From Buxus sempervirens (lineage: Eukaryota; Streptophyta; Magnoliopsida; Buxales; Buxaceae): a stretch of 64,000 nt of DNA. The stretch spans positions 378,976 to 442,975 of the forward strand of contig OX387187.1 of NCBI GenBank assembly GCA_947561395.2, in the 5' to 3' direction. Position numbers and translations under genes: made by a program. The notes under the pieces are model-generated. The model was not told where the DNA came from, did no database searches, and saw nothing but the letters and a program-made list of their open reading frames with translations. Below, piece by piece: positions 24,382-61,512 of this stretch; the stretch's first letter is position 1; each line of letters opens with the position of its first letter.

Positions 24382-24396
24382 ATAGTTGAAGGAAAT

Positions 24397-27341: not shown

Positions 27342-27365
27342 GTTTATGTAGGGTACATCAGCGGA

Positions 27366-29171: not shown

Positions 29172-29328
29172 GTTTATCTCACCCTCTTTCTTGTTCCCAT
29201 TCTTCTTTATCCCGCTTCCTTTCTTTAGATTGGGGTCCTATTGACTGACCATGGCAGAGTGGTCAATTATTTTACCTGACCTAATCCCATCTTCGATTCG
29301 GTCAGCCACTTGTACTAAGGCAGCAAAA

Positions 29329-30156: not shown

Positions 30157-30386
30157 GGCGCGAGCTCTTGATCTGGTTATAGGAGCTATGGTTTCAAGTG
30201 TACTTGGTACCTGGTAAAAAATAAAGGAAAAATATCAGTGCCAATTTAATCTCATTCACATACCTATGAATGCCTATATGCAATCTAGGTGAACACAAGT
30301 TTGGATTTTTTTCTTTATTTGCTTTTTTTTTTAGAATTGTTGGAATATTCTAGGGCTTCCAACAGATCCCACAAAAAGAGAAAAGG

Positions 30387-31263: not shown

Positions 31264-31269
31264 CCAAAG

Positions 31270-32750
31270 ATTTTCTTTCACATATTTTTTTGAAGCATTT
31301 TATTCAAACTCATTTCCCTTTATCATCATTTAAATGTTAAAGGAATAGGATTTAGTGGGAAAGACTGATTAAAATTGAATTTTCCGCTAAGACGGCATAT
31401 ATTGTACGGTCCGGCCTTGCCCGTATTTAAATTGCGAGCAAGCCGTGACCGTATAGTAAACACGGGCGAGCCCAGCCCGTGTAATGAATGCGGTTTACGG
31501 AGCTCTTTTAGTTTTTTTTTTTCAGTTTTTACATGATTTGATCACTTTGATTGCTCATCCAAACATACGGTTCACCCTTGCTAGGCCTCTAAATTGTCCC
31601 AAAGTGGACTTTGACCTATTTGCAAAAATATATGTTTAGGAGGGCACATGTACCTTTCAAATTGACACCATATTCAGGGGTATGGTACCCTTTGGTTGCC
31701 TCTTGTATGAACATTGGGTAGGATTGATCCTGAACAGAGTTAAAAACTCTTCCTATGGGCTACACCAATTTTAGGAAACATGCCTATTTGGGACCAAATT
31801 TATCCCAAACCGATGGACACCATGACACTCCTATGACATGAAAATAATGCAAAAATTAAGATTACCTTGTTACCTTGTTTACCTTCAATATGGCATCCGC
31901 ATTATGCCTTGGCTTGCGAACCATGCAAATGGCCTTCGTACAATTACAAACCCATATCCCCACGTAATTGTGTACTTTAGCCAAAAACGTGTAACTCCAC
32001 CTTCAAGCGTAGGGGCTTTGGGTTTTGGCTTAATGGAAACTTAGTACTCAAGCCTAATGATGACCAAAATCGAATCACAGATCCACGTTATCATCATATC
32101 ATTGGCCCAAAGTTCTAAGGTGAATGTTTTCATTTTCGCTTTCCGAAGTATCGACCTCGTTGCGCTAAGCTACACACATTCGGGTTCAACTTCCTATAGG
32201 TTATGGGTAGGTTGTGTAAAAATAAAATGTGCACAATGCATTGTAAAAATTGGGTGCATTCACAACATCCCAAACCCTTGCCACTCTTTTCACAGCCATG
32301 CATTACACAAACCAAGGCATAATAGGAAATCATATTTAAAGTAAACAAATATACAAAACAATCCTATAGCACCTAAAACATGCTCATAAAAATCATCTCA
32401 AACATGCAAAAATATGCTCATATTATACAACCAAAATACATCATGGAGAACATGCTGAAATTTAAAACATGTTATTATTAAAATATAGCAAGAAATTAGC
32501 ATGGTTTAGCAAAACGAACCCCCCTACGCGTGTTTCTAGAAACAATCCTATAAATCAAAATTAAGCATGTTTCTACCCCCATGAATTCTTAAGCAATAAT
32601 TCAGATTTAAAACATAGCAAGTATGCTTAAGAACACAAAATAGTAGGCATAACCATAGAACATATCAAACATGCTAAAAACACAAAAAGAGCGAACAAAA
32701 CAAAGACATCAAAAACATGAACAAAAACCAAAAGTTTGAAATCCACAAGT
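31270..32750 (-). other. Leader region of element 1, non-coding
   Basis: Between the primer site and minisatellite there is AT-rich DNA with no recognisable gene. If the LTR splice donor (34055 on the minus strand) is joined to the acceptor at 30211, the whole leader, hairpin array and minisatellite would be intron. Confidence 0.6.
31391..31495. repeat. 7-7-7-7 hairpin array in element 1 leader
   Basis: Again 105 bases made of fifteen 7-base segments, four hairpins. The first hairpin is degenerate (GACGGCA/TACGGTC). The others follow GCCCGTA-N7-TGCGAGC, GACCGTA-N7-CACGGGC and GCCCGTG-N7-TGCGGTT. It shares word and spacing with the LTR arrays of the same element. Confidence 0.88.
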
Positions 32751-32767
32751 CCCCAGCAGAGTCGCCA
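32751..32767 (-). other. Primer binding site of element 1
   Basis: Two bases inside the 5' LTR the minus strand reads TGGCGACTCTGCTGGGG, the complement of a tRNA 3' end (CCA preceded by G). I believe this is the tRNA-Arg-like site used by Tat/Ogre relatives, but cannot confirm the tRNA. Confidence 0.7.
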
Positions 32768-32769
32768 GT

Positions 32770-34568
32770 TGTGAGACATGGAAAAAATCAATTCAATGAC
32801 TTCCCTAATCATCACACGGGATTGGTTAAAAACAAAGAGTCGCCACCATTCTATTTAGGTGTGAATGGACACCAAAATATCAAATAAGCACAAAAAGGCA
32901 AATTTAGGGTAAAAATAACTCTATTAAAAAAAAACCAGAGATGGGTAAGGGGATTAGGTTATGAATAGAGGAAGGTGTTAGGCACCCCTATTCATCCACA
33001 CAAGGTGGTTGCCAGGTACTTTTCATGTTAAAATAAAGGAAAAAGGGCTTGCTACAAAAATATGAAAAATCATAAAAAAGACAAAAAATGTATGGTTTTT
33101 TTCATACGAATAGCCTGATTGATCCAGAACTTTCAAATACGATCATACCATTCCTAGGGTTTCATGATTAAAATAAAATTGAGATAAAATCAAATAAAAC
33201 CAATCTAAAGTGAAAACTTCAAAAATCTAGCTTTAAGTTAAATTCTGGAAATCGAGAAAAATATGATTTTTATAAAATATTGTAGAATTGAACTTGAACA
33301 GTCCAGGACATAGATATAGCCCAAATTTCACATTAAATCAAGAAATCAAAACCAAAAATACCTATGTTGATGAAGAACATCAAAATGGGAGAACTTAGAC
33401 CGTAGGGTCTTCTCTCAAACATGAAAAACAACTCAAAAACCACATCATGAAACCCTAGAAGTTACTTTCAGGCCTATGAATCCAGATCTATCATATAGAT
33501 CCAGGATCTTAGCCTAATATCACAAAAATCACGAAAACAGTGTTGTAGGTGCAAAAGTGGTGAAAATCCAAATTTTAGGAGAAAAAGAGGATTTCATGCT
33601 ATAAACATCATAGATTCATAGGATTCATTCAGATTCAACATAAAAACCATTATAACATGATCAGGATATTTAAAACAGCCACATCTCACAGATTAGAGCA
33701 CATGGGGGTCTACCCTACGGATCTACCTGTTCTCTTTTCCCCTAGCTCTCTCTTCACGTTTTACGGCTAGAGAGGATTCTTGAGGTACTTGGAGACAAGT
33801 TGGGTATACAAACACAATCAAAGGCCTTATTCTATGAAAAAGAAGAAAAACAGATTATGGGGTTCTATTCTAGGGATCTACTTGTTCCCCTTTCCCCTAG
33901 CTTTCTCTTCATGCTTTATGGCTAGAGAGACTCTTGAGGTACTTAGAGACAAGTTTAGGAATACAAGATAAAAGGAGGCCTTATCCTACAGCAATGGAGA
34001 ATATCCTACTACTTCTAGAATTGAAGACAGAAAATAAAAGGGAAAACGGACTTACCTGGATTGAGCAAGCAGAGCAGCAGGGATTCCTCTCTTCTCTTGG
34101 AGCTCCTTGGACTTCAAATTTTCGTGGCCCTTTGCTTAAGAATCTCCCCTCTATTTATAGGCAAACCCAAGGGTATGGTTGGTCCAAAAGGATATACCAG
34201 GATCCCACCAGATTGGGTTAAAAATAAGGATAATGCCCATCCATGGCCAACAAAGATATTTTGAACGAATAAAAGAGATAATTCGCTCATTTAAAGAGAT
34301 ATTAGACTGAAGATAAGGCTTAGAAATCGAGCAAAGATAAAATTTGCACAAAAACATCGCGCCCGTATTTATATTACGGGCAAGTGGTGTCCGCATTGGC
34401 ATTACGGGCGCTGCGTGCTCGTATACAAAATTCGGGCACGGTCAGCCCGTAAATACAATACGGGCAATGCTTAAATGATTAAATTTCATGCATTTTTGGC
34501 ATGTTTTAAATCTCAATTACATGTTTTCATTATTTTCTCATTTTGTAGTGCAATTTGGGGTGTCTATA
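32770..34568 (-). repeat. Element 1 5' LTR (family A)
   Basis: Partner of 18008-19816; long runs are identical. In sense order: hairpin array 34465-34361, TATA CCTATAAATAGAG (near 34160), splice donor CAG|GTAAG at 34055, end GTCTCACA at 32770. The terminal CA of the sense start is mutated (TATA for TACA on the plus strand). Confidence 0.95.
34361..34465. repeat. 7-7-7-7 hairpin array, element 1 5' LTR
   Basis: Four hairpins, 105 bases, same spacing as 19609-19713. The outermost arm is GCCCGTA here but GCCTGTA in the other LTR, a single C-to-T difference, so this copy is closer to the symmetrical form. Confidence 0.95.
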
Positions 34569-39220: not shown

Positions 39221-40885
39221 TGTGAGACATGGAAAAATCAATCTCGTGACTTCCTATCATCACACGGGATTCATAAAAGGGAGGAGTCGCCACCATTCAA
39301 TTTTAAGGTGTGAATGGACACCAAAATAATCAAATAAAATAAAAAAGGCAAAACTAGAGTAAAAATAACTCTACTTTAAAATAAAAATCCAGAGATGGGT
39401 AAGGGGATTAGATTATGAATAGGGAAAGGTGTTAGGCACCCCTATTAATCCACCCAAAATGGTTGCCAAGTGTTGCTCATGCTATAAAAATGCTTGCTAA
39501 TAAAAATCAAAACAAGGTAAAAGGAAAAAAGAATGTATGGCTTATTTCCATGTGAATGATCCAATTAATTCTAAATCCTTCTTTATGAAAACAAAAGCCA
39601 TTTCTTGGGCTTCATGAGTGATTAAAACTAAAAGAAAACAAATCCAAAATAAAAACTTAAAAAATCTGACTTTAAATTAAATCCTTGAAATCTATGAATA
39701 AATAAAAAAAAAAATATTATTTTTACAAAATTTTGCAGAACTGAGTCTGAACAATCCAGGACATAGATCGAGCTCATATTTCTCATTAAATAAAAAATCT
39801 AAACCAAATATACCCACGTTGATGAAAAACATCAAAAAGGGAGAGCTTAGACCGTAGGGTCTTCTCTCAAAAACCAAAAATGACTCAAAAACCTCCTCAT
39901 GATGCCCTAAAGATTACTAGAAGGCTTCTGATTCTAGATCTACCATATGAACAATGGAGGATCCAAGATCTTAACCAAACGACTAAAAAAACCAAAAACC
40001 ATAAAACGGGTGAAAACAATGTAAAACATCAGAATATATGAAGAAAATGAGATCTAATGCTATGAATAGCATAGATCTAGAGTCTTCCTCCATATTTCAT
40101 CACTAAATCATCATAGAATCCAAACAAAACATTAAAACTATACATTTATAAGATTATCACATATGGGGGCCTGCCCTACGGATCCACCTGTCTCCCTTTC
40201 CCCTAGCTCTCTCTACACGTTTTACGGCTAGAGAGTAGTCTTGAGGTACTTGGAAGTTGGTTTGGGTAACAAACACACACATATGCCTTATTCTATAGAA
40301 GATAATAGAATGCAAAAATAATCCTAGAAATTAAAACTAGAAAAGAAAAGGGTTGAAGGCTTACCTGGAGTTTTGAAAGCAGAGAGGCAGAGGTTCCCTT
40401 CTTCACTTGGAGCTCTTCAATCTCCAACTTCTTGGCCATTTGCTGGAGGGGAGACCCTCTATTTATAGGTAAGAGCTAAGGCAAAGGGAGCCGTAATGGT
40501 AGACACAAACATGTGTCTAGAACCCTCCAATTTAACCCTAAAGTATGAACTTGGGAGAATAGGGTTAATCTCAGAGGCTAAATGTGAGAATCCTCACTTC
40601 TCAAATGGAGGTAACATACCAAAAACGAGTGAAAACTTGCAGGATTTCTAATTTGGAGCAAAATATTAGTATCCGAAAAAACAGGTCGGATACAAACAAA
40701 CCTCTTTGTATTCGAAATATAATTTCGGATACAAACAGATAGGTGTGTTTCCAAAATCAATTTTCGGATACAAAGAGATTAACCTTTATCTGAAATTTAA
40801 TTTCGGTTACAAAAAGAAAGACTTGTTTTTGATGATTTCGGCCAATTATTCATCCTTCTTCACAGTGCAATTTGGGGTGTCTACA
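39221..40885 (-). repeat. Element A 3' LTR (diverged family A)
   Basis: Plus strand TGTGAGACATGG...GTGTCTACA. It is shorter and clearly diverged from the other family A LTRs, with TATA box CCTATAAATAGAG near 40468. Internal DNA starts at 40886 with the polypurine tract (ACTGCCCCTCTTTG on plus). The left flank GCACC (39216-39220) is not repeated at 40886, as expected for an LTR with the element still attached. Confidence 0.9.
40668..40811. repeat. 9-9-9-12 hairpin array, element A LTR
   Basis: Four hairpins with arms of 9, loops of 9 and spacers of 12: AGTATCCGA-N9-TCGGATACA-N12 and so on, total 144 bases with no length deviation. Same place in the LTR as the 7-7-7-7 arrays, but different word and spacing. 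Confidence 0.95.
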
Positions 40886-41304
40886 ACTGCCCCTCTTTGA
40901 TGGAATTGCAAAACAATGAACAACAAAGATTAGACAGATCCGAATTTCACTCCCGTGACCATGATTTGCTTTGTTCAATTTTATTTTTGCAAAACAATTT
41001 TGGGTGGAGATTTGCCAAAAAGCCCTAACTTTAGGGGGGCATTTCTCCCAGCTGTCTTAAATTCCACTGAGCTCTCGTGGCTATGAGGTGGATTTTAAGA
41101 CCAAAATATAAGATTTTTGAAAAAACTGATTTTGTAGCAAACCATGCCAGATTAAAAATTGACTGAATATTTGACCTTTTGACCAATGATATATTCTTCT
41201 TTCTTTTCTTTCTTTTTTTTTTTCTTCTTTTTTTTCTCTTTCTCTTTTTATTTTATTTTATTTTATTTTATTTCCTTTTTTCTCTTTTTTTTTCTTTTTT
41301 TCGT

Positions 41305-41370
41305 TGTATCCGAAATAGGTGTTCGGATATGCCAACTTCTATTTGTATCCGAAATAACATTTCAGATACA
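41305..41370. repeat. Two-hairpin array before the PMD gene of element A
   Basis: TGTATCCGA-N9-TCGGATATG-N12-TGTATCCGA-N9-TCAGATACA, exactly 66 bases. It follows a T-rich tract (41200-41300) and precedes the PMD 5' untranslated exon. The matching place in element B also has two hairpins (54573-54621). Confidence 0.95.
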
Positions 41371-42256
41371 CCAGGCTATATGACTTGCCCGCGCAACCTG
41401 CACTTCGTTTCTCTTCTTCTCCGAACGACAAGGGCGGACACACATCCTTCCTCCTGCGACGAACCTTCGCCACCTTCCTTCTCTGGAGACTTCTAGGCGG
41501 CTTTCTCAACTCCGGCGGCTTCCTTTGATTCCGGCAATTCACCTGCTCACTGTTGCGGTTGAGCCCTAGTTTGGCCCTTTTGATGACAGTTCATTGCTTG
41601 ACGCCGTCACACGAACTTCGGTGATACTTTATATGTGTTCCGGGGACTTAGGCAACACTCCCTGCTCCGCGCCAATCTGATTTCAAGCTTGCCATCAGTC
41701 ACCCATCTCTCCACTGTTCCTGCCGCAATTGACAGTGGGTGACTCATTTGTTCTTGGCGATTATCCTCCTTACCCACGTTTGTTCCCAATTTCAGGTAAC
41801 CTGTTATCCTTTTACTCTTGAATTTTTGCAAGACTTGAGTTTGGCGTTTTGATGAGCATGAATTTTTGTTTACCTCCTTCATTGAATCTTGAAATTACCT
41901 GTATTTGATTGTTTTGACCAACCTTTTCACATAACCATGCAATGTTATACCCTCTAGCATATTTTCAGACAATCCCTATTTGCTTTCTTACTGCTGCATT
42001 TTGATGATTGTCGAAGCAAACTTGCCTTCTGATGCATCCTCATTAATTTCTATGTTTAACTTGATTAGATGATTTACATGCAATTCTTGCTTCGATCACC
42101 AAGCAACTAGGACTTCTTTATGCAATATTGACCCTTTCTCCTTGCTTTTGCATGTTCTGCCTTCTTGAGTACACCTTGTACTTTTTTTTCTTTTCCTTAT
42201 CTGGTAATCCTGAAAATAAATTAGGAAAGGTTAAGCTTTGCAAAGAACAATAGTGG

Positions 42257-44077
42257 TGTGAGACATGAAAAATCAATTTAATGACTTCCTAATCATCACA
42301 CGGGATTCATAAAAAACAAAGAGTCTCCACCATTCTGTTTAGGTGTGAATGGAAACCAAAATCATCAAATAAGCACAAAAAGGCAAAATTAGAGTAAAAA
42401 TAACTCTATTTTAAAAACAAAACAAAAACAATCAGAGATGGGTAAGGGGATTATGTTATGAATAGGGGAAGGTGTTAGGCACCCCTATTCATCCACACAA
42501 GGTGGTTGCTAGGTATTGTTCATGTTAAAATAAAGAATGCTTGCTTAAAAAAAGAAAAAAAACATAAAAATAACAAAAGTGTATGGTTTTTCATATGAAT
42601 ATCCCGATTAATTCAGAACTTTCAATATGATCATACCATTCTATGGGTTTCATGATTAAAATAAAATTGAGATAAAAATCAGATAAAACCAATCTAAAGA
42701 GAAACCTGAAAAACTAGCTTTAGGCTAAACCATTAAAAGGTTGAAAAACTAGATTGAAATCTCTTGATTAAATCATTGAAGAGTAAAGTTACTTGGAGTA
42801 CAGATCTGATTCGAATCTCTCAATAGTGGAGAAATAGAACCCCCACTCAACCCATGTTGATGAAAAAAATCAAAAGGGAGAGTTTAGACCATAGGATCCT
42901 TTCTCCAAGATTAAAACAATTTCAAAATCACATCATGAAACCCTATAGGTTACTTTCTGGCTTTTGGTTTTAGATCTACCATATAGATCATGGTAGATCC
43001 AGAATCCTAGCCAAATATCACCAAAATCAAGAAAACAGTGTTGTAGGTGCAAAGGTGTGAAAAATCCAAACTATTGAAAAAAGTGGGGATCTCATGCTAT
43101 AAACATCATGGATTCATAGGGTTCCCGCAGATTCAAAATAAAACCATTAAAACATTAACATGATAGTAAAAGCAACCACATCTCCCAGATTATAGCACAT
43201 GGGGGTCTACCCTATAGATCCACCTGTTCTCTTTTCCCTTAGCTCTCTCTTCACGTTTTATGGCTAGAGATGAGTCTTGAGGTACTTGGAGATAGGTTTG
43301 GGGATACAAACACAATCAATGGCCTTATTCTATAAAAAAAAGAGAAGAACAGATTATAGGGTTCTATTTAAGAATCCACTTGTTCCCCTTTCCCTTAGCT
43401 CTCTCTTCACGTTTTATGGCTAGAGAGGAGTCTTGAGGTACTTGGAGGTAGGTTTGGGAATACAAGTATAAACTAGGCCTTATTCTATAGCAATGGAGAA
43501 AATTAGATTATTTCTAGAATTGAAAACAGAAAATAAAAGAGAAAATGAACTTACCTGGATTGAGAAAGCAGACAAGCAGGGATTCCCTTCTTCACTTGGA
43601 GCTCTTCAGACTTCAAATTAATGGCCCTTTGCTTGAGGATGCCCTCTATTTATAGGCAAACCCAGGGGCATGGTTGGTCCAAGGGATATGCCAAGATAGA
43701 GTTTCAGATTGAATTAAAAACAGAGATAATGCCAATCCATTGAACCAAAGAGGATAAATAAGAGGATTCGAATGGATAAACAAGAGGATTCGAATCTCCC
43801 AGAGAGAGATTTGGATGTAGATAAGGCTCAGAAATCGAAAAAGGATAAATTCGCACAAAAACCCTCGTGCCTGTATATATAATGCGGGTGTGTCCTGCCC
43901 GCATTCTCAATATGGGCACGGCATGCCCGTATACTGATTGCAGGCGCGACTAGTTCGCAGATACAATATGGGCACTGCCTGTTTGATGAAATTTTATGCA
44001 TTTTTGACCTGTTTCAAATCCCAATTACATGTTTTCAATTATTTTCTCATTTTGTAGTGCAATTTGGGGTGTCTACA
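42257..44077 (-). mobile_element. Family A solo LTR in the PMD intron of element A
   Basis: Plus strand TGTGAGACATG...GTGTCTACA. The flanks AGTGG (42252-42256) and ATTGG (44078-44082) differ by one base, consistent with an aged 5-bp duplication. It carries a GCCCGTA-type array, unlike its host element. Confidence 0.88.
43869..43973. repeat. 7-7-7-7 hairpin array in solo LTR
   Basis: Four hairpins in 105 bases. Arms are more mutated (GCCTGTA, TATGGGC, TGCAGGC), mostly C-to-T or G-to-A changes, but every segment length is still seven. Confidence 0.93.
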
Positions 44078-47075
44078 ATTGGAAGTCAAAATTTCTGATA
44101 AACAATTGAACATAAAATTGTAGTTAACAGAAATATAAAACACTTCCTTGTTTCCTATAGATGGCTAGAGGTCGTTCCCGTGTGAGAGAGGAGGTTGATC
44201 CAGCCGATCGACCTTCTTCCTCACGAGCTAGGATTGATTCTGATCAGAGTGCTACCCTATCTGAGCCGTTGGATGATTCCAAAGAGAGCTCTGGAGAGGT
44301 TTTTGTCGAGGTAGGCTACTTTTATTTTTTCTTCCTCTTCTTTCTCCTTAAACAAACTTTCACCCTTCATCTTTTGACTTTTAGCCCATTGTGGCTCCCG
44401 GTCTAGGTCGGGGTCGCGGCCGAGAGAGAGGCCGCGGTTGAGAGAGAGGCCATGGTAGAGAGAGAGAGAGGCCGTAGTAGAGCTTCAGATCAGGCTCGGG
44501 AGACCATTGCTCTAGTCTTCCGTTTAGAGTTCTTTGAGGAGTTGAGGGCGTCTGTTCAGGACACAGAGCTCCTTAGTGGCTTGGATAGCCATCCCTCCAT
44601 GTGTGTCAGGGCCGATCTTCCTCTTCCATATCCTCACTCTCACCTACGAGGCAGCTGGGGGAGATTCAGCGAGCTGGTTCATACACTTTCTCCGGCACTT
44701 AGATGTGAGTTCAATCGGTGCCACTTCGACCATTTTCTCCTCATTCCATCGTTTCGAGTTGACCGCCCTCTCGTCTATGCCATGGTGGAGCGATACTTCG
44801 CTAATACACAATCCTTCCATTTGCCCGATGTTGAGCTGGGGATTCGTCCTTCTGATTTTGCCATGATTACTGGCATCTCTCTGGTGGGGCGGACTATAGT
44901 GATGGATCGGCCTCCCTATGCAGACATTAGTTCTCTCTTGGGATATGCCGCCTTACCTGATGATGCTTGGGATGGGAGGAGCAGCTGACTTTCTATTAGC
45001 TGGCTGCGTCGTAGCCTTTTTGATCACTTCGATGGGCGGCATACGACCATCTCTGCAGAGGGCGAGGCCTTTGCTCCTATATTTCGGCACATCTTCTTGC
45101 TCATGCTTGGGAGCTACTTCTTCCAGGAGGATACGACCGTAGTTAGTCCCATTTTCTTGGATGCCCTCAGAGATTTCCACCAGACCAGACAGTTGGCATG
45201 GGGTCGACTTATATATGGGACTGTCCTGGCTGGACTATGCCGAGCCATCCGCGGTTTGGCCGCTCCGATAGGGGATGGTATTAGCTACCGATTCTTCTGG
45301 CAGATATTCCAGGTACTGAATACATTTTATTTCAAGATCTCTTCTTTCTGTCCCTGACTGGTTTCTTTTTTGCCAGATATTCATGTACACTTACATGACC
45401 TATTTTCGCCCATCTCCTGTGCCGATGCTGAGGAGTTCCCTGTAACCATACGGTGGTCTGTGCTTGATAGGGATGCAAATAGGAGCCAGCCTCGTTCAGC
45501 TCGGGTTCACCTAGACCGTTCCCGACGATCTGAGGTAAAAATCCTTAACCCTTTATCCCTTGTCTCTTTCTTTCATGCCTTGTTTATTCCTGACATTCTT
45601 CTTCTTCTTTGCAGCTATTGTTGGCCTGCTTCGAGGATGTAAGTAACGGGGTGGCTCGTGAGCTCATACTACAGGACGCCTTTGATCGGGATCTCCAACA
45701 CCAGCCCTACCAGTGCTTCCTTGGGAAGCTTGGTAGGGTTATGTATCTAGGCGAGCAATTGTACTATCAGCACATGGGTGTGCCTCGTATTCCAGTTCCT
45801 CCTCCTCCTGTTGGTCCTACCATCCTCCTAGTTGGGTTTGATGTTGACCAGTTTGATCAGTGGGAGGATGCAGAGGGACTCACAGTAGCTGGGGACTATG
45901 ATGAGTGGATTAGGAGGGTATCCATCGGGTGTTTGATGGATCGGCCTACTCGGGCTGGAGTGACCGAGATTGGCGGGATCTACATCTGGGTTCATGACGA
46001 TACTGTAAGTTTGCTCTTGGCTCTTCCATCTTATTTCTTTCAACTTAGTATTCATGACTTTAACCCCTTTTTCATTGGCAGGTGGAGGAGTTGAATGCTC
46101 TGAGGGACCGGTTTCAGAGTCAGCGGGCAGCAGTTGATGACTTGATTGCTGACCACGATGTGATCGTGGCTCAGAGAGATGCTTGGATCAGAGAGCTGGA
46201 GGCTCTGGTTGCTGAGCTTAGGACTAGAAATGTATCTAGTTTTTTTCTATCTTTGCTTCTCCTTTATGTATTTCCATGCCATTCTTATAGGGATCGCTTT
46301 GAGTTTTACAGGCCTATCCACAGAGTCCAGCTCATGTGTGCGCACCTAAATTGGATCGCACTTTGGGCGCACGTGAGTTCGTGCATGCCTCGGGACATTC
46401 GGAGTGGCCACTGCCTGAGAGGTGCAGGCAGACACGGTGATTGCCCTATCCGGGTCTAAGTATGGTCTGCGGCTTTTCAGAGTTCTAGCTAAGTCCTCGG
46501 TTACGTCCGGGGAAGTCCGAAGACACCCTGGCCCGCCCCGTCAGTTTGACAGGTCCCTCTGGTCTTCCTGGTTTTTGAGTCAATTTTCACCCTTTCCTAG
46601 ACCAGCATGCCTCTTCTTGGGTCTGGCGGGGTCCTCTGGAGGTGTGGGCCCCTTTTATTTCATTTGTTATCTTTTTACTTAAGTGAGGTAGGTCGGGTAC
46701 AGGCCCCGTTGGAAGGCCTGTGGTTTGCCAGGTTTGGGGCTTGGGCCCAGTAGGGTTATTGGGTAACCCTATTTTGGTTTATTTATTTATTAAACAAACT
46801 AAAAGGCTAAAAGGGTCTACTGGGCTTGGTTTTGGCCCAAAGACGATTAAGGAGATGGCCTTGGGCCCGTTTGTTGAAAACGGACTTGGTTTTGGGCCGG
46901 TCAGAGGTGGGCCCCATAAGTAGGCCCAGGGTGCCTTGGTGGGCCTGGTTAGGCCTATGGTCCACAAATGGGCTACGGATAGCCCAAACAGCTCATTGGA
47001 TCGGGTCAGGCCGGTTCGGGTCGGATCAAGTCCAACCAAGCCAAAAATTATGTTTTTTAAGTTATTTTTAAAGCT

Positions 47076-47180
47076 GCCCGTATTTGCTATACGGGCTGGC
47101 CTTGCCCGTAAATGCGATACGGTTCAGGCCTGCCCGTATAGGAAATAAGGGCATGCCCAGACCGTATTGCCTCTACGGGC
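47076..47180. repeat. 7-7-7-7 hairpin array in family B LTR
   Basis: Fifteen 7-base segments, four hairpins of the GCCCGTA/TACGGGC type. So an unrelated LTR family uses the same word and spacing as family A. Confidence 0.95.
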
Positions 47181-48004
47181 ATCGCCTGATTTTTGAGTTT
47201 TGCGCCAATTCTGGCCGAGATCGGTTTGGATGTCTTCTTGGGGTGTTCCGGTGACTTCTGTTTGGGTTCTTAGCGCTCCTGTTGTAGTGTCAACACCTTC
47301 GTTTGCCTTCAAATCTTTCTTCTTTCCTTCGAGGTTTTGTAATGAGATGAAATCTCACTTTTCTTCATTCAGTTGAGTCATTTGCAAGATGAGAAAGGAT
47401 GAGAAAGGAAGAAGAAATGGGTTGTGGTTACATTAGACCATCCAAAGAGGACAGACCCCTCTTGTATTCTTAAATGAAACCAATTCATCAAATTACGTTA
47501 GTTTGCACATTCCATTCTTTGTTTTATAAACCTTCTCTTTCCCTTTTCGTGTAGAGACACCCCTTCTCATGGGGTCTCTCATAGCATGTGAAGGTGAAAT
47601 AAACAAGTTAGTAACAATATAATAGAAATAAAAGAATTTAAGTTGTTCAAATACAAAAATTCACATGTATGTTAAAGAAAAAGTTACCAGAAGTACACTT
47701 TTACTGTTACCTTTCACTTCTGATGTGTTTGGGTTCTCCGAGAAATTTGGGCAGCGCTTCCGCACTCCTGTTGATTCTCTGAAATTGGTTTAAAAAGGGG
47801 GTTCTTTATGCTTCAGATAGAAGGGAATGATAGGTAAGGGTGAAGGGTATGGCTTAATGGTAAAACGGGAATTTTTCAGGCTTGCAGAGTTTTGGCAGGG
47901 TAGGGGACGTGGAAAACACGAAGATAGAGAGGGAGGAGGCTTTAGGGGGCCAGCTTGCTCCAATTGGGGGGCTGGCCCCCCTTTTATAGGCAAAAATTGG
48001 CCGG

Positions 48005-48190
48005 AACCGCACTTTAAGTGTGGTTTGGTCACAAACGCACTTCAAGTGCGGTTCCTGCCAAATTACACTAAAAATGCAAAAACCGCACTTTAAGTGTGGT
48101 TGGCATTAAAAACGTGCGAATCTGCCACCGTTGCCGTACAGGACACGCGTCCACCTTCTAGAAGATCAAAACCGCATTTGAAGTGCGGTT
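48005..48190. repeat. Palindrome array, CCGCACTT type
   Basis: Four 21-base units, AACCGCACTT-N1-AAGTGTGGTT and variants, at 48005-48025, 48033-48053, 48081-48101 and 48170-48190. The arms are 10 with a single-base loop; spacers vary (7, 27, 68). It lies immediately upstream of the minus-strand TATA box. Confidence 0.92.
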
Positions 48191-49749
48191 CATACCAAAC
48201 AAGTGCGGTTGCGCACGTTTTTTAAATGCCGGATTTGAAATCTTTTATTAAATTTGATTTAATTAAAGATTTTTATTCGATTTTCTTAATATTTTATTAA
48301 AAAAATCTAAGATTCTTTATTATTATATTATTAAAATATTCATATACTTTTTATTAAATGTTAAAATATTAAGATATGTTTTATTAAATGTTTTTTTAAT
48401 TTATTTTATTAATTCATTTTGCTTTTTTGCTGCTATTTTGCCAAACGGGTAGTTTTCTTGAAACTTCAACTGTCCATAACTTCTTCGTCTAGTGTCCCCA
48501 AACTTAGTATCATTGGAATCAGCTTAGAACCACCTATCCATTGGGATCACTTTGGACAGCTGAATTGGGGTCGAGCAAAAAGTCAACTTTTTGCTCCCCA
48601 AAAGTTTGACCGGCTCATAACTTCCTTATCCGGACTCCGATTCCAGCAAACTCAATTGCGTTTGAACCGTGTCGAAATGCTCTTTTCAATGAGATGAAGT
48701 TTGACGGCCAAATCTCCTTAGATGAAAAAGTCAAAATTTGACCCCCTCAAGGTTTGACTTTTTAGTTTGACTTTTTATTTTCTGCATTTTAGGGGTGCAA
48801 AAATCAGGTGCTAACATCATGATCAGGTTTGCTTCCTTTAGAATTTTGGGCATCCTTTATTTATGCAAATTGATACTGATTCTTATTCATTTGTGATTTT
48901 TAGGATTTTGACCATCCAGGCCCTTCTACCTCTGTGGGTGCTGCCTTGGGTGCTGATGATGTTCCTGCTGAGCCAGTCCTTACAGTCCATGGTTCATCTC
49001 CAGCTGCTAATCCCGATGTCATCCCGGTTACTGGTCTTGATTCCACCTCATCTCCTGTTCTTGTTTCTATCATAGATCCTGCTGGTGCATCTCCTTTCGT
49101 GATCGTTCCTGATTGTACGGTTTCTGTTGCAGATATCCCCTGGTAAGCTTGCTTCAATTTTATTTCTTAAATGATCATGTGTTTCAACTTCTGACTTTAC
49201 TTCTACTAAACCAGATGTCCTTGTTCCTGTTACTGCTGAGGCTTCTGGAGCTGTGGGAGCTGAGGCTTTTGAGGCTATTTTGACTGAGGATCATGCTGAG
49301 CTTGAGGCATCCATTCCTCCAGCTGAGCTTGCTCTTGCTTAGCCTGAGCCTTTGACTTCGAATTCTGTTCCTACGGGCCCATTCCCTGACAACTCGGCTT
49401 ACAACTACACGTATTAGATTCAGTCCATTCTGGGTTGGGGACAGCGCTGCGCTGCTGAGCGCATTCTGACACATGTCTTTGGGCGCCGGCGACCCCGAGG
49501 TAGAGGTCGTAGCAGAGGACGTGGTAGAGGATGTGGGGATAGTCCTGCAGAGGGACAGTAGATTAGGATTTCTTGTGCATTGACTATTTTTGTAAAAAAT
49601 GAATTTTATATATAAAGAAACTTCACATTCATTGCTCCTCATTATCTTGCTCCTTTATTTCCATTTTTTACAGTTATGAAATGTACACAGGTAATACAGG
49701 AAAATTTTTCGGATTTTTCATGCTTTTCTCTCTTTTTTTCACTTTTTCA

Positions 49750-49932
49750 TGTATCCGAAATATCAGGTCGGCAAATACAACCGCTATTTGTATCCGAAAT
49801 AACATTGTGGATACATACAATATCACTTATATTCGAAATAAGATTTCGGATACATATAATACTATTTGTATCCGATATAACTTGTCGGATATGAAGGACA
49901 TTATTTGTATCCGAAATGTTAGTTCGGATACA
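49750..49932. repeat. Five-hairpin array before DUF7745 gene of element A
   Basis: Five TGTATCCGA-N9-TCGGATACA units with exact N12 spacers, 183 bases in total. GTATAAAAAA follows at 49941-49950, a possible TATA box for the gene starting at 50061. The matching place in element B also has five hairpins (61358-61490). Confidence 0.95.
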
Positions 49933-50060
49933 CTTAAGCCGTATAAAAAATATCAATATCTCGGGATGTGCGTCTTTGTGACGATTATTTGAGTTTAGAA
50001 AGCTTCCTCCCTTCGTGTTTTCTTCCTCCACTTGCTTCTAACAGGTTCCATTCATCCCCA

Positions 50061-51732
50061 ATGGCTTCTGGATCATCTTCCTCCTTGTTTTCTTCTGCCA
50101 CGGACGCCTCCCCTGCAAAACAACCGTTCAGATCAAAGCCCCATAATCTCACTAGATACAACATTGTAGATTCATTCTACAATAGATGGGTTAACTCCAT
50201 GACCCTTGAAGAGGGCATCAAGTGGGATTCTACCAACTTGGTTCACATCCTGCTCATCCCTACCATCCCCTTCAAATGGGAAATCATTGAGGCCTTGATT
50301 GGACACTGGGAAGCTCAGTTAAATCTTTTTAGATTTGGTGATAAAGAGATGACCCCTATAGTTGAGGAGATTGAAACGATCCTTAGCTTGAGGTTCTCAG
50401 AGAAAGTGGTGAACCCGCCCCTTAAGCCTAGTTACAAAAAGGAAGCTTCTACTTTTTTGGGTATAGGGAAAAAGGACTTAGGGGCCTCTGACACCCTGCT
50501 GACTCTGTCCAAGACTTTTTTGACTGAAAAACTCTTAAGGGGTGATGACCGAGAGGCCCGGTTTAATGCTTTGACTTTGATAGTGGTCAACTAGCTACTT
50601 TTCCCACGGGGTGATGACAAAGTTGACTTGGCTCTCATTTCAGTCATATGCCAGGTTAAGGAGCAGGAGAGGTTGGCCCCTATGATTTTGGTAGAGATGT
50701 ATCAAGCCTTGACTAACTGTCATTTCAGGAAGAAGAAGCGCTTTCTCGCTTGTTCCCCTATCCTACAGGTAAAATCTCCCTTTTTTTTACAACTTCTTTG
50801 TGAAGCTAAAATAAACTGAAATGCTCCCTCTTTTTGCAGCTTTGGTTACTTGACCATCTGAGTCAGATTGAGATGATTGATCGACGCTTTTCCACAAGAT
50901 TAAAGTTCTTGTTTTGATTAGTAACAGGGGATGTCTTGACATCCAAGGTGGCAAGCAGGGTTTGTTTACTTTCTTGGGCACTCTCCATGATGATTAGGTG
51001 AGATGACTTGGCACTTATTAGCCAAATGCCGAGACAGTGATTAACTTCAGAGACAGGAACTTCATGGTTATAGTAGGCTTGAGATCTGTTGTTCTCTATC
51101 TTCCTTTGAGGGTCCTTCGGCAACTTGGAGGGACTCAGGGGACCATGATTCCAGATGGGTATGCAGACTTCTTGGGACCACTTACACCAGCCACCATGGG
51201 GCTATGTGCTTGGTTGATGAAGGAATGGTCCTATGTGCGCTTCATGAGGGGCCTAGTCTTTTCTGAGTCACATGTGAAGGACTACCTTTTCTGGATCAGA
51301 AAGCAGGTTCAGAGTCGTACCCCAGTACCAGAGGATCCTCCTGCTGTTCTTGCACCCACTTACGAAGATATACTGGTTTCTGAGAGAGCATCTCATAAAT
51401 GGCTTCAAAAAATTTGGGTATGAGAGGCCCAAGAACTTAGGATATGAGGCCTTGATTTGAAGAGGCAAATTGAAGAGCAGGTGTCTCGCTGTACTGCTTT
51501 GGAAAAGCAACTTGAGGAACAGAGGCTGGCTCGCCGCTTTGAAGTCCAGGTGATACGGCAGAAGTACCAGGATGCTTTAGCCGACCTTAGGGGTATAAAT
51601 ATCAAGCAGGCACTTTCAGATGAGGTTATCTCCTTTTTTAGCAATCCGGATGCAGAGGAAGCTTCTAGGATTATTACGACTCAAGCAGCTCGGATTCGGG
51701 AGCTTGAGAGGCGGCTAGGGGATAGGGACTAG
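50061..51732 (+). pseudogene. DUF7745-type antisense gene of element A
   Basis: Exon 1 50061-50768 (ATG chosen because MASGSS aligns with the element B start; donor CAG|GTAAAA), exon 2 50840-51732 (acceptor TTTTTGCAG). Same domain order as in element 1: the FKWEIIEALIGHW and FRFGDKEMTPIVEEIETIL motifs, FLGIGKKDL, GPLTPATMGL and a C-terminal coiled coil from about 51400. Breaks: TAG at 50592 (CAG to TAG), frameshifts near 50910, and TGA at 51421 (CGA to TGA) and near 51445. Exon 1 is otherwise the best preserved of the three copies. Confidence 0.85.
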
Positions 51733-52420
51733 CTCCTTTTATTGCATTTTTTTCCATACCTTTGTTCAAAAGCAAACTCCCATAGTGGAAATACAAAGGA
51801 TTTTATTCAAAAATAATTTTTGATACTATAGGCCTCAGAATTCTCAGATGCTTGCAAAAACAAAGGTTTTATGAAAAGTATTTGATTTCTCATCACTGGC
51901 CAAAATATAAATTTTTTTGTTTGGTCCAAAACACTTAATTGCACATAATTAAAGGAATTAAAATCAAGTTGAATAATGAAGAGGATGATTTAAGCAATAG
52001 GGAGAGATCATATCTGTCTATCCTAGGACCCTTAGAGTCTTCCCCAAATTTCTTTTCTTCGAGAATTGACCCCGTTATTCCCAGTCTGTTCCATCTTCAG
52101 TGCTCATACTGCTTTCACTTCAAGCTTGGATAACATGATCAACTCAATCTCTGATTCTATTTTTCTTTTTTTTTTCTCTTTTTTTTTCTTTTCTTTTCCT
52201 CTTGCCAATATTGCCCCTAGCGCCAGTTACGGTTTTCACTAGGGCCGGCTTTTGCATTCCGTCATCGCCAATTTTTACTCTGAATATTGAAAGAATACAC
52301 TAAAATCACCGAGGGCTTATAAATAGAACGAAATGAAGGCTATGCTTGGTTTATGAAAGAAAGGGTGTTAAAGGCTCAAAATTTTCCAAACATGAAAATT
52401 GGTCAACTGGACTTAGTCAT
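51733..52420. other. Convergent spacer of element A, cut by element B
   Basis: Homologous to 22058-22740, including TTGCCCCTAGCGCCAGTTACGG near 52212 and a T-rich tract at 52160-52200. No gene. It breaks off at the element B LTR. Confidence 0.8.
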
Positions 52421-54224
52421 TGTGAGACATGGGAAAAATCAATTCAATGACTTCCTGATTATCACACGGGATTGGTTACAAACAAAGAGTCGCCACCATT
52501 CTGTTTAGGTGTGAATGGACACCAAAATATCAAATAAGCACAAAAGGCAAATTTAGGGTAAAAATAACCCTCTAAAAAAACAACCAGAGATGGGTAAGGG
52601 GATTAGGTTATGAACAGGGGAAGGTGTTAGGCACCCCTATTCATCCACACAAGGTGGTTGCCAGGTATTGTTCATGTTTTTCAAAGGAAAAAGGGCTTGC
52701 TACAAAAATAAAAAAAAATCACAAAAAGGACAAAAGTGTATGGTTTTTTCATACGAATAGCCTGATTGATCCAGGACTTTCAAATATGATCATACCATTC
52801 CTAGGGTTCCATGATTAAAACAAAATTGAGATAAAATCAAATAAAACCAATCTAAAGTGAAAACTTCAAAAATCTGGTTTCAAGTTAAATTCTAGAAATC
52901 TAGAAAAATACGATTTTATAAAATATTGCTGGATTGAACTTGAACAATACAAGACATAGACATAGCCCAAATTTCACATTAAATCAAGAAATCATAACAA
53001 AAAATACCCACGTTGTTGAAGAACATCAAAATGGGAGAACTTAGACCACAGGGTCTTCTCTCAATAATGAAAAAGGACTCAAAAACCACATCATGAAACC
53101 CTAGAAGTTACTTTCAGGCTTTTGGATCTAGATCTATCATATTGATCATGACAGATCTAGGATCTTAGCCTAATATCACAAAAATCACGAAAACAGTGCT
53201 GTAGGTGCAACGATGTGAAAAATCCAAATTTTAGAAAAAAGGAGGATTTCATGCTATAAACATCATGGATTCATAGGATTCATTCAGATTCAACATAAAA
53301 ACCATTAAAACATGATCATGATATTTAAAACAATCACATCTCACAGATTAGAGCACATGGGGGTCTACCCTACGGATCCACCTGTTCTCTTTTCCCCTAG
53401 CTCTCTCTTCAAGTTTTACGGCTAGAGAGGATTCTTGAGGTACTTGGAGATAGGTTTGGGTATACAAACACAATCAAAGGCCTTGTTCTATAAAAAGAGG
53501 AGAAAAATAGATATGGGGTTCTATTCTAGGGATCCACCTGTTCCCCTTTCCCCTAGCTCTCTCTTCACGTTTTACGGCTAGAGAGACTCTTGAGGTACTT
53601 AGAGACAAGTTTAGGAATACAAGATAAAAGGAGGCCTTATTCTACAGCAATGGAGAAGATCCTATTACTTCTAGAATTGAAGATAGAAAATAAAAGGGAA
53701 AATGGACTTACCTAGATTGAGCAAGCAGAGCAGCAAGGATTCCTCTCTTCTCTTGGAGCTCCTTGGACTTCAAATTTTCGTGGCCTTTTGCTTGAGGAGA
53801 GACCCTCTATTTATAGGCAAACTCAGGGGCATGGTTGGTCCAGAGTTTGGCAAGATAGAGTTTCAGATTGAATTAAACACAAGGATAATGCCCATCCATG
53901 GCCAACAAGGATATTTCGAACGAATAAAAGAGATAATTCGCTTATTTAAAGATATATTGGACTAAAGATAAAGCTCAGAAATCGAGAAAGGATCAAATTC
54001 GCACAAATCTAATGCGCCTGTAAATGATTTACGGGCAAGTGGTGTTCGTATATGCATTACGGGCACTGTATGCCCGTACACAAAATTCGGGCGCGCTCAG
54101 CCCGTAGATACAGTACGGGCAAGGCTTAAATTATTGAATTTCATGCATTTTTGGCCTGTTTTAAATCCCAATTACATATTTTCCATTATTTTCTCATTTT
54201 GTAGTGCAATTTGGGGTGTCTACA
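52421..54224 (-). repeat. Element B 3' LTR (family A)
   Basis: Closely related to the element 1 LTRs. Plus strand TGTGAGACATGG...GGTGTCTACA, with hairpin array 54016-54120 and TATA box near 53813; the polypurine tract follows at 54225 (GCTGCCCCCTCTTTG on plus). Confidence 0.93.
54016..54120. repeat. 7-7-7-7 hairpin array, element B LTR
   Basis: Four hairpins in exactly 105 bases, ending with GCCCGTA-GATACAG-TACGGGC. Loops and spacers are close to those of element 1. Confidence 0.95.
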
Positions 54225-54572
54225 GCTGCCCCCTCTTTGCTAGTAATTGAAACCAATTATGAGCAGAGAGCAAAAAAGACCCACCAATTGCACTTTTTGA
54301 GATTTTTGTCTAACTAATTGCATTTTGCAAGGACTAAATGGATGATTTTGGAAAAAGAATTTATTGCGGAAGATTTGCTGAAAAGTCCCTAATCTTAAGG
54401 GGCAAATCCTCCTTTCTCCTCTCACTGAGCACTCGTGGCTATGAAGTGAGATTTGAGACAAAATTTTAAACAAAAGTGGGTAAGGTGGCAATCCTTGCAA
54501 CTTACAACTAATATAAACATTAATCTCCTAAAAAGTGTGGAGAAAATAATAAAAAATGCAATTTTCTGCTTC

Positions 54573-54621
54573 GCCCGTATTTGCATTGCGGGCAGATGAT
54601 GCCCGTAAATTTTATACGGGC
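54573..54621. repeat. Two-hairpin array before PMD gene of element B
   Basis: GCCCGTA-N7-TGCGGGC-N7-GCCCGTA-N7-TACGGGC, 49 bases, at the same place as the two-hairpin array of element A (41305-41370). Confidence 0.95.
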
Positions 54622-54818
54622 GAATTGGACTGCTCTACCTTTATGAGCGCTTGCTGCACGTGTTATTTTTACGGATTTTGGCTTCCTTCTTAATCACGGC
54701 TGCGACTCTTCTTTCTCTTCTGCTCGCATTTTGCCTTATTTTTCCTACGATCGTATCTTCTTCTCCGGTCTTCCTTCTCAATCTCAACAGTGCTTCCCAT
54801 CTTCTCCGGCGACGCACG

Positions 54819-57145
54819 TGTAACGCCCCGGATCCGTGTTGTTCAATAAAGATATAACACATCTCACGGAGTGTTAGGTAAGGATCTTTAATCATTTATG
54901 ATCGTTGGATAATCATCTAACTAAAACATGTCAGAGTGCACAATTATATTTTATCTAGGAATTCAATATTTAAAACTTAACTAAGATTCAAATGGTACAA
55001 CCCCAAATGACTTTATTACACCTCAATCATTCAATTTATTCAAGATTCAAATCAAAAATAACCTACAAGTCTAAGGAATGTAATAGTAGTCTTCCTCCCT
55101 ATAAGTCTCAGTCGGATCTACCCCAATAGTTGCCTCATCTCGAGTATCTGAAAACAAAACAAAAACAACAGAGTGAGATACGAATATCTCAGCGAGTAGC
55201 ATATGCATGCAAAAATAGTTAACCGCAGTTCAAAATTATGCATCGATAAACATCCCGTACGATTAAGCAACTAATACAATTTCCACATTTAAAACCAAAA
55301 CCAATTAATCAGCTCTAATCACATTTCAATTCAATGCGGCAACACATCGATTGGTCAATGTCATGACTATTGTTAAGTTGATAAATTAAACATGCCAAGT
55401 AGACACTCCACACCTCCATGTACACAGTTCCGGCTTACTCAGGGTTTTGGAAACTCTGAAATGACGGCCTACTCAGGGTTTTGTCATCCAATGCCAGCCT
55501 ACTCCCCGGGTTTCGGCATTAACAACCAGGCCTACTCAGGGTTTCTGGCTGCTCTACACCGGTCGTGGCAACACACAAGGCCATGCAATTTCAACAACCA
55601 ACAATAACATTACATTACTAAGCTTAAGCATGGATCCAGGACAAGCTAAACCAAAACAATAAATCATCGTATAATCTCAATTCCAACATCAAATTAAAAC
55701 AATACATGCCACATCATGTATAACTCAACACAGTTCACCACATGTCCCTCTGGACCAGACGGTACTTCAAGTACTTTCAGTATTTTCCCAAATTCGTAAC
55801 ACATGCCAATTTGAAATAAAACTCAGTTACTCACACCAATAAAATCCTTACAATACATTCAGAATTTTCCAACAAGTAAAACCAAGATTTAATAAATTCT
55901 ACCAAGTACAGTGTATAAAACAAAGAGGAAAATAACTAGTAACTCCTAGTGATTGGTACCCAGTACAACACTTACAAATAACCTAAAATTTGCCTTGGAA
56001 TCCTCTAAGAATTTCCACTAAATTTTCTCCTATTAATTGAATAGGTTATATTTGTTCTAAAGTCCCAAACAAGTGATTGGTTAAGTGGTTGAACCCTCAA
56101 ATCATCAAAAACCAGTTTGGTTTAGTCAAAAATACAATTCGGCAAGCTTATTAGACCATGCGTTGACCTCCTGCGCTAGGCGCGAGGTCGGCAGATAGGT
56201 CGATAGGTCGGCGGATAGGTCGATAGTCGAAAATGGGGTATGCGCCTACTTAAAATCAAGTGAGCGCGAGCTCGGCGCGAAGTGAGCGTGAAGTTCGCGC
56301 GAGAAGAGCAAATAATATTTAAGTGAGCGCGAGCTCGGCGCGAAGTGAGCGCAAGCTCGGCGGATAGGTTGAGTGTATCTCGCGCTCACTACCCGAAGTC
56401 GGCGCAAGTGAGCGCCAAGTGAGCGGATACTCACTGTATTTTTCGACTCTCTGTTATTTCCAGATCTCCAACTCTGGCCGATCTTTTTCAGTCTGTAACC
56501 ATTTGTTTAGTCTCCTAATCTCCCCAGAACACATTCAAACTAGTTTTGAAATTAATCTAAACATATTTTCTATTTATCATCATTCAGTTACAATAAAATC
56601 ATGCTCGGTCGAAGTTCTTCCAGAAACTCAGAAATCACTCATGCAACAGGATAAACTCACGAATAAACACAAAACCTCAGTTTTAAAACGATGCTACTCA
56701 CCTCTTGCACGCTTATATCCCAGCACAAATATATTCCAAACCACGGCCGATCACCAACAGTCCGTCTGTGTGCTTGCTAACGCCGCCGAGATGATCCTAA
56801 TTTCACAAGAGGAAAACCTTCTGAATCCTTGATCACCAACACCACAAATCCAGTAGCCGTTCCCTTCTCTTCCCAACGAAAACCTAGGTCGCCAGTCGGT
56901 AGCCGCAATTGCCAATCTTCATCGGTTACGAACGTATACGAGTATTCCCAAAAACTAAACCTAATTTCCCTTAACCATTTACCTTCCATATTCAGTTTGC
57001 CACTCGACAACCTTTGAAATTCTTTGATTCCGTGTGTGCTCGCCCACCGAAAACCCTACATATACCCACATCTACTTAATTTAATATGTACACGTAATTA
57101 ACTTTAAATAAAAAAAAAACTTAGCAAAAAAATTGGGGTTTTACA
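54819..57145. mobile_element. Solo LTR, family C, in the PMD 5' region
   Basis: Begins TGTAACGCCCCGG, ends GGGGTTTTACA, flanked by GCACG on both sides (54814-54818 and 57146-57150). Same family as 13216-15577. It interrupts the 5' untranslated region of the element B PMD gene. Small frames within it are not genes. Confidence 0.93.
56160..56420. repeat. GC-rich repeat cluster in family C LTR
   Basis: Repeated AGTGAGCGCGAGCTCGGCGCG words and GGTCGATAGGTCGGCGGATA words, with GCGCGAGCTCGGCGC-type partial palindromes. It occupies roughly the place of the 14821-14954 cluster in the other family C LTR but with other words. I could not find a strict spacing rule. Confidence 0.7.
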
Positions 57146-61357: not shown

Positions 61358-61490
61358 AACCGTATTTATGTTACGAGCAAGCCGTGCCCGTAATGTTAAT
61401 ACGGGCGCACTTTGCCCGTAAATTTTTTACGGTTACAGTGTGTTCGCATTCTCTATACGGACACGCCATGCTCGTATTATAAATACGGAT
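61358..61490. repeat. Five-hairpin 7-7-7-7 array before DUF7745 gene of element B
   Basis: Nineteen consecutive 7-base segments, 133 bases, five hairpins. Arms include AACCGTA/TACGAGC, GCCCGTA/TACGGGC, GCCCGTA/TACGGTT, GTTCGCA/TACGGAC and GCTCGTA/TACGGAT. It ends 22 bases upstream of a TATA box. Confidence 0.95.
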
Positions 61491-61512
61491 TTTACTGCCT
61501 TTTCAAATTTTC

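Follow-up and report, generated by a model that had tools for sequence, protein, structure and literature searches.

Ogre-type (Tat) Ty3 retrotransposons with antisense accessory genes lie in the sequence described here, a 64 kb window (C9:378976-442975) in the 676.5 Mb, 247-contig genome of Buxus sempervirens, and they carry rows of short palindromic words in their long terminal repeats (LTRs) and before their genes. A preliminary description of this window had proposed that the word is set by the element, and this holds at the level of word class: 25 arrays could be assigned in six elements (A 4, B 5, C 4, E1 4, E2 5 and E3 3, the LTR in piece L028 not being counted), and none was of the other class. 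Judging from the sequence, these arrays may be dimer-binding sites at each promoter of the element, read by a swappable factor that is perhaps the element's own PMD protein, a reading to which we assign close to, though short of, an even chance.

Of the six elements followed, A, B and C are located in the window and the piece adjoining it on the right, and E1, E2 and E3 in 200 kb of contig C1. Class 39 denotes the TGTATCCGR word (A, E1, E2 and E3) and class 28 the GCCCGTA word (B and C). The array census was scored at 39- and 28-base steps, with ten block-shuffled windows per class as a control. It yielded 29 arrays at step 39 and 13 at step 28 in the sequence examined and none in either set of ten shuffled windows; the 29 include one locus counted twice (L002/L003) and two arrays cut by a piece edge, and pieces L001-L005 were chosen for holding the word. 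Arrays were assigned to elements by order, strand and matching loops, and those inside inserted LTRs were credited to the insertion and not to the host element. Excluded in this way were the arrays at 43869 (in a B/C-type LTR) and 47076, both GCCCGTA and both in A's span, L006:7664-9071 in E1's span, and three in E2's span, namely L014:5223 (class 28, in a B/C-type LTR) and those at L013:1095 and the L013/L014 edge (in E1/E3-type LTRs).

In element A, the arrays lie at the places first claimed for them, in the LTR, before the PMD gene and before the DUF7745 gene, and all steps are exactly 39 bases (unit starts 40668/40707/40746/40785, 41305/41344 and 49750/49789/49828/49867/49906, respectively). 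The further statement that every length fits with no exception is true of these start positions and not of the arms, in which 5 to 9 of 9 positions pair (LTR 8, 8, 7 and 6; PMD 7 and 8; DUF7745 5, 7, 7, 7 and 9), the lowest value belonging to the first DUF7745 unit, whose 3' arm is out of register. The 27-mer TGTATCCGA-N9-TCGGATACA has 12 matches with up to three mismatches in the window vs 0.01 expected, and its exact form occurs at 6,031 sites genome-wide, with 0 for the reversed control pattern. A scan for the geometry without the word gave 0 hits in 5 shuffles. For element B, the census verified the counts of four, two and five units (LTR, PMD and DUF7745) with GCCCGTA-N7-TACGGGC-N7.

A fourth array place, missed by the preliminary description, is the leader between the 5' LTR and gag, where arrays were found in A (L027), B (L026:5847-5979), C (31391-31495), E2 (L014) and E3 (L018), the L014 leader being homologous to those of E3 and A. 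No leader array was found in E1 and no DUF7745 array in E3, in which the first DUF7745 block was likewise not found. In A, B and C, the word array of the leader is adjoined by long arrays of further palindromic repeats, TCTGAAATTCAAAGGCTTTCAGA, which recur at steps of 39 to 48 bases in C (window 30380-31280; L026 5070-5715; L027 7140-7610).

The companion claim that number is set by place is best satisfied before PMD, with two units in 4/4 cases, and in the LTR, with nearly always four, and is looser before DUF7745 (4-5) and in the leader (3-5). Class-28 LTR arrays have four units in 6/7 cases (B twice, C twice, 37181 and 43869) and three in L014:5223, and eight class-39 LTR arrays have four (A, E1 twice, E2, E3 twice, L001 and L028). 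In L005 and L013:1095 a fifth, weak unit (scoring 11 and 12 out of 18) adds to the four, the array of L002 is damaged, with two units counted, and in L014 and L015 a piece edge truncates the array. DUF7745 arrays contain five units in A and B and four in C, E1 and E2, and leader arrays three in A (a fourth is visible under the threshold), five in B and four in C, E2 and E3. Between B and C, the leader array differs by a complete 28-base unit, a sign that units are gained and lost whole.

The two classes are built on one dyad. All of the word forms, TGTATCCGA-N9, TGTATCCGG-N9, GCCCGTA-N7, TGTAACCGA-N9, CTTGCCCGA-N9 and AACCGCACT-N3, yield CCG-N11-CGG, and successive dyads are separated by N22 (period 39) or N11 (period 28), spacings that are 11 bp, or about one helical turn, apart. 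The 9-9-9-12 arrangement of element A and the 7-7-7-7 arrangement both hold CCG-N11-CGG, and the idea of two unrelated geometries was dropped on these grounds. When CCG-Nk-CGG was counted for k from 3 to 40, a comparison made post hoc in that the N11 pattern was spotted after the words were known, N11 was the commonest spacing in the window (34, median 2) and in the C9 stretch (10, median 2) and the second in C1 (54 vs 57 for N37, median 13).

Conservation within the units was measured on two half-site sets. The class-39 set comprised 43 units of 11 arrays and omitted one element's duplicate LTRs, the leader arrays, the E1 and E2 PMD arrays, the second-family arrays described below, L002, L004 and L028. 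The class-28 set comprised 38 units; both leaders and the 47076 array were included, C's DUF7745 array contributed just its first two units, which precede a one-base shift, and L014:5223, the far LTR of B and one of the two C LTRs were omitted. Column conservation was 0.89/0.90 in the arms, 0.55 in the loop and 0.51 in the spacer for class 39, and 0.88/0.86, 0.54 and 0.48 for class 28. Deviating positions were changed in one arm in 45 cases and in both arms in 1 (1.4 expected by independence) for class 39, and in 63 and 3 cases (4.5 expected) for class 28. The A/G choice at arm position 9 agreed within units in 34/41 cases, with a shuffled mean of 34.0. The arms behave as single half-sites, and hairpin folding is not supported. 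A CpG is present in every word form, so binding could depend on methylation, and 13/45 one-armed changes fall at the two CpG positions.

These sites are placed in the control regions of the element: U3 of the LTR, the leader that precedes gag, and the stretches upstream of PMD and DUF7745, both of which are antisense genes. In element C, pol is on the minus strand in Ty3 order, with reverse transcriptase (RT) followed by integrase (Pfam). Relative to gag-pol, the observed PMD and DUF7745 genes occupy the opposite strand, which makes them antisense accessory genes and puts the LTR array in U3. An extra PMD open reading frame is present between pol and the 3' LTR in A, B, E1 and E2, and none was found in C (by tblastn) or in E3. 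An RVT_3-type match at 650-737 of the C RT block, after RT_RNaseH, may be the second RNase H (aRH) that this lineage has between RNase H and integrase. When LTR ends were aligned, the flanks CTATTTATA and GTGCAATTTGGGGTGTCTACA were common to most rows and the TATA was kept, too, while the enclosed arrays differed in class. This class difference recurs in the leader and in the promoters of PMD and DUF7745, where the flanks of B and C are weaker. A TATAWA starts 9 bp (A), 11 bp (E1 and E2) and 22 bp (B) after the DUF7745 arrays and 7 bp after the PMD array of E1, so that 5/9 DUF7745 and PMD arrays have one within 22 bp, vs 266/10,400 random stretches (2.6%). None was found within 60 bp of C's DUF7745 array, or after the PMD arrays of A, B and E2, with GCTATATG nearby in A and TTTTATAAC in E2.

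Across the word change, PMD diverges far beyond RT, integrase and DUF7745. Element A is 80.9/81.0% identical to B/C and 80.3-82.6% to E1-E3 in RT, and 85.8/87.5% and 86.5-88.0% in integrase. In DUF7745 block 1 the values are 81.6/81.5% to B/C and 80.0-80.8% to E1 and E2, and in the fast block 2 they are 69.8/73.4% to B/C and 71.6-72.3% to E1/E2/E3. For gag, A is 80.2% identical to B (106 residues), 77.2% to C, 66.4% to E2 and 62.2% to E3. PMD identity across the word change is 47.4 and 44.6% for A-B and 44.9-49.6% for B-E1/E2, and within class 39 it is 70.2-74.8% for A-E1/E2 and 85.4 and 89.4% for E1-E2, the A-E distances of PMD resembling those of DUF7745 block 2. Sites that A shares with same-word vs other-word elements (B and C) number 7:7 in RT, 4:5 in integrase, 0:7 in gag, and 7:12 and 6:10 in the two DUF7745 blocks; for PMD, where B is the only other-word element, they number 62:8 and 45:3, ratios inflated by B-private changes (RT against B alone gives 46:12).

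In order to account for these observations together, we propose that the arrays would be rows of putative binding sites for a dimeric regulator, each site being a CCG-N11-CGG dyad whose flanking bases would make the element-specific word. The element itself would encode the factor that binds the arrays, most likely its own PMD protein, and this factor would activate or un-silence the sense LTR promoter and the element's own antisense promoters together. A change in this factor would then select for a word change in all control regions of the same element, and the matched word change would separate the element's regulation from that of its sister elements. The binding, the activation or anti-silencing, and PMD as the reader are steps suggested by the sequence pattern. 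A more specific version is possible but rather doubtful: PMD would be a DNA-reading module of changeable specificity, every Ogre-type element would have a PMD reader of its own with matching CCG-N11-CGG dyads in all control regions, and PMD would be exchanged along with the word, independently of how the remainder of the element evolves. PMD and DUF7745 both end in long charged helix-like stretches, as judged by eye, a feature compatible with a dimer sitting on a dyad, and DUF7745 is itself PMD-like, with E1 exon 1 matching Pfam PMD at 43.5 bits (cut-off 34.9). Searches of DUF7745 exon 1 against a 5.8-billion-sequence protein database gave 270 candidates, none of them significant, and viral contigs gave 5 pattern matches, none confirmed for RT, and none for PMD.

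Several observations weigh against this proposal. B and C group together (integrase 91.6%, DUF7745 87.9 and 85.7%), as do E1-E3, with A about equally far from both, and a single word change on the B/C branch therefore explains the words. The link between PMD and word may come down to this one event, four PMD genes and one of GCCCGTA class among them, and its site counts carry the inflation from B-private changes noted above. Arrays persist in the LTR and leader of C and E3, and before DUF7745 in C as well, though no PMD gene was found in either element; a second LTR family bears arrays, too, and no PMD gene was found beside its window copy. The A LTR array lies about 200 bp 5' of the conserved pol-sense TATA stretch, and other inverted arrays in the window (AATCGGA 4277-4505, TCTGAAA 30329-31195) are without CCG-N11-CGG. 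AlphaFold2 gave no reliable fold for B's PMD block (4 sequences, pLDDT 37.9), a PDB sequence search with B's first PMD block found no solved relative, and PMD is not, as far as we know, an established DNA-binding domain. The half-site conservation, the location of the arrays and the excess PMD divergence agree with the original suggestion that a cis site is matched to a changeable factor, but the trees need only one word change and the factor is a candidate. A stronger statement, that RT, gag and DUF7745 contradict the words, was set aside as too strong, as they are compatible with a single change of word on the B/C branch.

The arrays could instead be sites of host transcription factors, such as stress or developmental activators, with words differing as lineages exploit different host factors. 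Sireviruses, which have repeated CGG-CCG palindromes upstream of the LTR TATA and 5' of the envelope gene (PMC2829016), offer a precedent, and the arrays of C and E3 and those of the second LTR family also speak for such an explanation. Independent choice at four places would not predict one class per element, however, and the class change shared by all control regions coincides with excess PMD divergence; we regard host factors as unlikely, though not far-fetched. It is quite unlikely, in our estimate, that no matched factor exists at all, with two lineages differing in LTR, leader, PMD and arrays through descent from one change, PMD having simply diverged or been replaced, and gene conversion keeping the words within an element alike. 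One word change is enough on the trees seen, unit number shifts by whole units (B leader five, C leader four), and A's gag is nearer to C (77%) than to E2 and E3 (66 and 62%), such that parts of elements may have been exchanged. The loop AATAACATT is also identical in A's PMD and DUF7745 arrays, as the proposed homogenisation inside an element would have it, but loops and spacers should then travel with the arms, and they vary far more than the arms do; unit homogenisation as the whole cause was rejected in part for this reason. The class also changes jointly at four places, which flank gag-pol on either side, and arrays before PMD and DUF7745 are often near a TATA.

Within the idea of an element-made reader, the DUF7745 protein could take the place of PMD. 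It is PMD-like and has its own 4-5-unit array, near a TATA box in 4/5 cases; C, in which PMD was not found, has a DUF7745 gene and has retained its arrays. Yet DUF7745 has no excess divergence (A to B/C 69.8-81.6%, A to E1-E3 71.6-80.8%), and its shared sites do not favor the same word (7 vs 12 in block 1, 6 vs 10 in block 2), which leaves this variant very unlikely. A role of the palindromes as RNA hairpins or DNA cruciforms is hardly credible. The inverted repeats are near-perfect, some inner loop bases lengthen the stem, and both arms are changed in a few leader and second-family units outside the class-39 half-site set. Against this, both-arm changes at 1/46 and 3/66 positions show no excess compensation, the A/G at arm position 9 agrees no more within a unit than within an array, and a TATA box closely follows 4/5 DUF7745 arrays, which are therefore probably not part of that transcript. 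Hairpins or cruciforms as the main function were rejected for want of covariation.

Parts of this arrangement are known already, as CGG-CCG palindromic boxes upstream of the LTR TATA and of an internal gene are a feature of Sireviruses (PMC2829016). As described there, these Ty1/copia elements have many dyads with a CGG/CCG core in the LTR upstream of the TATA and 5' of the envelope gene, and the motif varies by element. The elements described here are of Ty3 type, with RT before integrase and not in Ty1/copia order. The Sirevirus box CACCGGACTGTCCGGTG is CCG-N7-CGG (PMC2829016), whereas here the spacing is N11, with a period of 28 or 39, near-set counts per place, a single class shared by four places, and a PMD gene that differs where the class does. 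In the VANDAL elements (MULE) of Arabidopsis, a short family-specific motif (YAGTATTAY) is repeated in non-coding regions, a trait shared by the word arrays here, and address-matched anti-silencing is known (PMC5735166). Those are DNA transposons with a DUF1985/DUF287 VANC protein (PMC5735166), and here the element is a retrotransposon with PMD as candidate reader; the main text of that paper has no word that begins with "inverted" or "palindrom", whereas the sites here are phased inverted dyads. Pfam scans of 10 pieces at E 0.01 and of 3 at E 5, which covered part of the exons, gave no DUF1985. Foamy virus Tas/Bel1 is also a retroelement's own DNA-binding activator that acts at the LTR and an internal promoter (PMC517496), but protein and host are unrelated, and here the genes are antisense and the arrays palindromic.

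Among Tat elements, Grande gene23, RIRE2 and Retand TRP28 likewise provide extra open reading frames antisense to gag-pol, between pol and the 3' LTR, for which a regulatory role has been suggested (PMC7264820, PMC11963269). Maize Grande gene23 encodes a nuclear protein and is transcribed antisense from its own promoter (PMC7264820), and PMD has been reported in 57% of Ogre elements (PMC6317226). Word-matched palindromic promoter arrays are not described for these genes in the available text of these sources (PMC7264820, PMC11963269, PMC6317226), and a 2020 review calls the function of antisense accessory genes in plant LTR retrotransposons unknown (PMC7264820). The host PMD proteins MAIN/MAIL1 are needed for the expression of genes sharing a promoter motif (25/26 genes), and the contact of their complex with chromatin or the motif is left open in the available text (PMC7156037, PMC9899485); this DOWN motif, CATGCAGTTT, is not palindromic, unlike the dyads here (PMC7156037, PMC9899485). 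In the accessible portions of the open-access literature, we found neither word-matched arrays reported for PMD-bearing retrotransposons nor a report of fixed dyad spacing, of four one-class places, or of a link between PMD and word.

If the proposal is true, it would be a second case, in another element class, of address-matched control as in VANC. The more specific version, if true, would mean that LTR retrotransposons have a regulatory or anti-silencing circuit that is self-addressed, and would explain the action of PMD proteins, host MAIN/MAIL1 included. As a candidate reader, a candidate site and a natural swap pair (A TGTATCCGA, B GCCCGTA) stand within one 64 kb window, both the function of the accessory genes and motif binding by MAIN/MAIL1 would be open to simple binding assays.

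Table 1. Features of elements A, B and C in the window (positions of the window; arrays without orientation are marked by a point).
Feature	Position	Strand	Basis
LTR of A, TGTGAGACAT...GTGTCTACA as read on +	39221..40885	- (pol sense)	sequence read; homologous LTR flanks aligned; 93.5% copy at L028
A LTR (U3) array, 4 units TGTATCCGA-N9-TCGGATACA, period 39	40668..40811	.	step and census
A LTR conserved TATA region, pol sense, CTATTTATAGG on +	40459..40469	-	same stretch in A, B, C, E2, E3; CTATTTATAAG in E1
A PMD promoter array, 2 units, period 39, then GCTATATG	41305..41370	+	step and census
GCCCGTA-class (B/C-type) LTR between A's PMD array and PMD coding region	42257..44077	-	array 43869-43973, 4 units
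A PMD gene, several exons, with stop codon	44161..46231	+	Pfam PMD PF10536 E 5e-6, under Pfam cut-off; tblastn
A DUF7745 promoter array, 5 units, period 39	49750..49932	+	step and census
TATAAAAA, 9 bp 3' of A DUF7745 array	49942..49949	+	sequence read
A DUF7745 gene, two coding blocks, block 1 ends at stop	50061..51708	+	Pfam DUF7745 PF24924 E 5.5e-5, under cut-off; tblastn blocks
Element B, GCCCGTA class	52417..64000, on into L026 to about base 8990	-	position, census
B LTR array, 4 units GCCCGTA-N7-TACGGGC, period 28	54016..54120	.	census
B PMD promoter array, 2 units, period 28	54573..54621	+	census
B PMD gene, two blocks	58666..60205	+	Pfam PMD E 7e-9, 35.7 bits (cut-off 34.9)
B DUF7745 promoter array, 5 units, period 28; TATAWA 22 bp on	61358..61490	+	census
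B DUF7745 gene	61552..63344	+	tblastn
Element C, GCCCGTA class, both LTRs	18005..34520	-	Pfam, tblastn
C LTR array, 4 units, period 28	19609..19713	.	census
C DUF7745 promoter array, 4 units, one step 27	20160..20263	+	census
C leader array (5' LTR to gag), 4 units, period 28	31391..31495	.	census, alignment
C second LTR array, 4 units, period 28	34361..34465	.	census
C integrase (22977-23999) and reverse transcriptase/RNase H (24400-26610)	22977..26610	-	Pfam rve, RVT_1, RT_RNaseH

Element B is apparently nested in A, as integrase, RT and gag assigned to A resume after B's far LTR and an A-type LTR copy lies further on, in L028. This copy (about 8200-9360 of L028) is 93.5% identical to A's LTR and has a four-unit TGTATCCGA array; it is perhaps A's other LTR, displaced by later insertions.

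The second LTR family, whose members are partly homologous, was seen at window 6101-8700, L006 6650-9630, L004 and L028 4665-4937. Neither a PMD nor a DUF7745 gene was found beside its window copy, and it is possible that this family is a partner borrowing the factor in trans. Its arrays are of TGTAACCGA/CTTGCCCGA, TGTATCCGG or GCCCGTA (47076) type according to the copy, and in two copies a TATA box lies 10-12 bp from the array. Between A's PMD and DUF7745 genes, an inserted solo LTR of another family (46337-48816), with TCATG at both sides, holds four GCCCGTA units (47076-47180) and, beside a minus-sense TATA box, AACCGCACT-N3-AGTGCGGTT palindromes (48005-48190).

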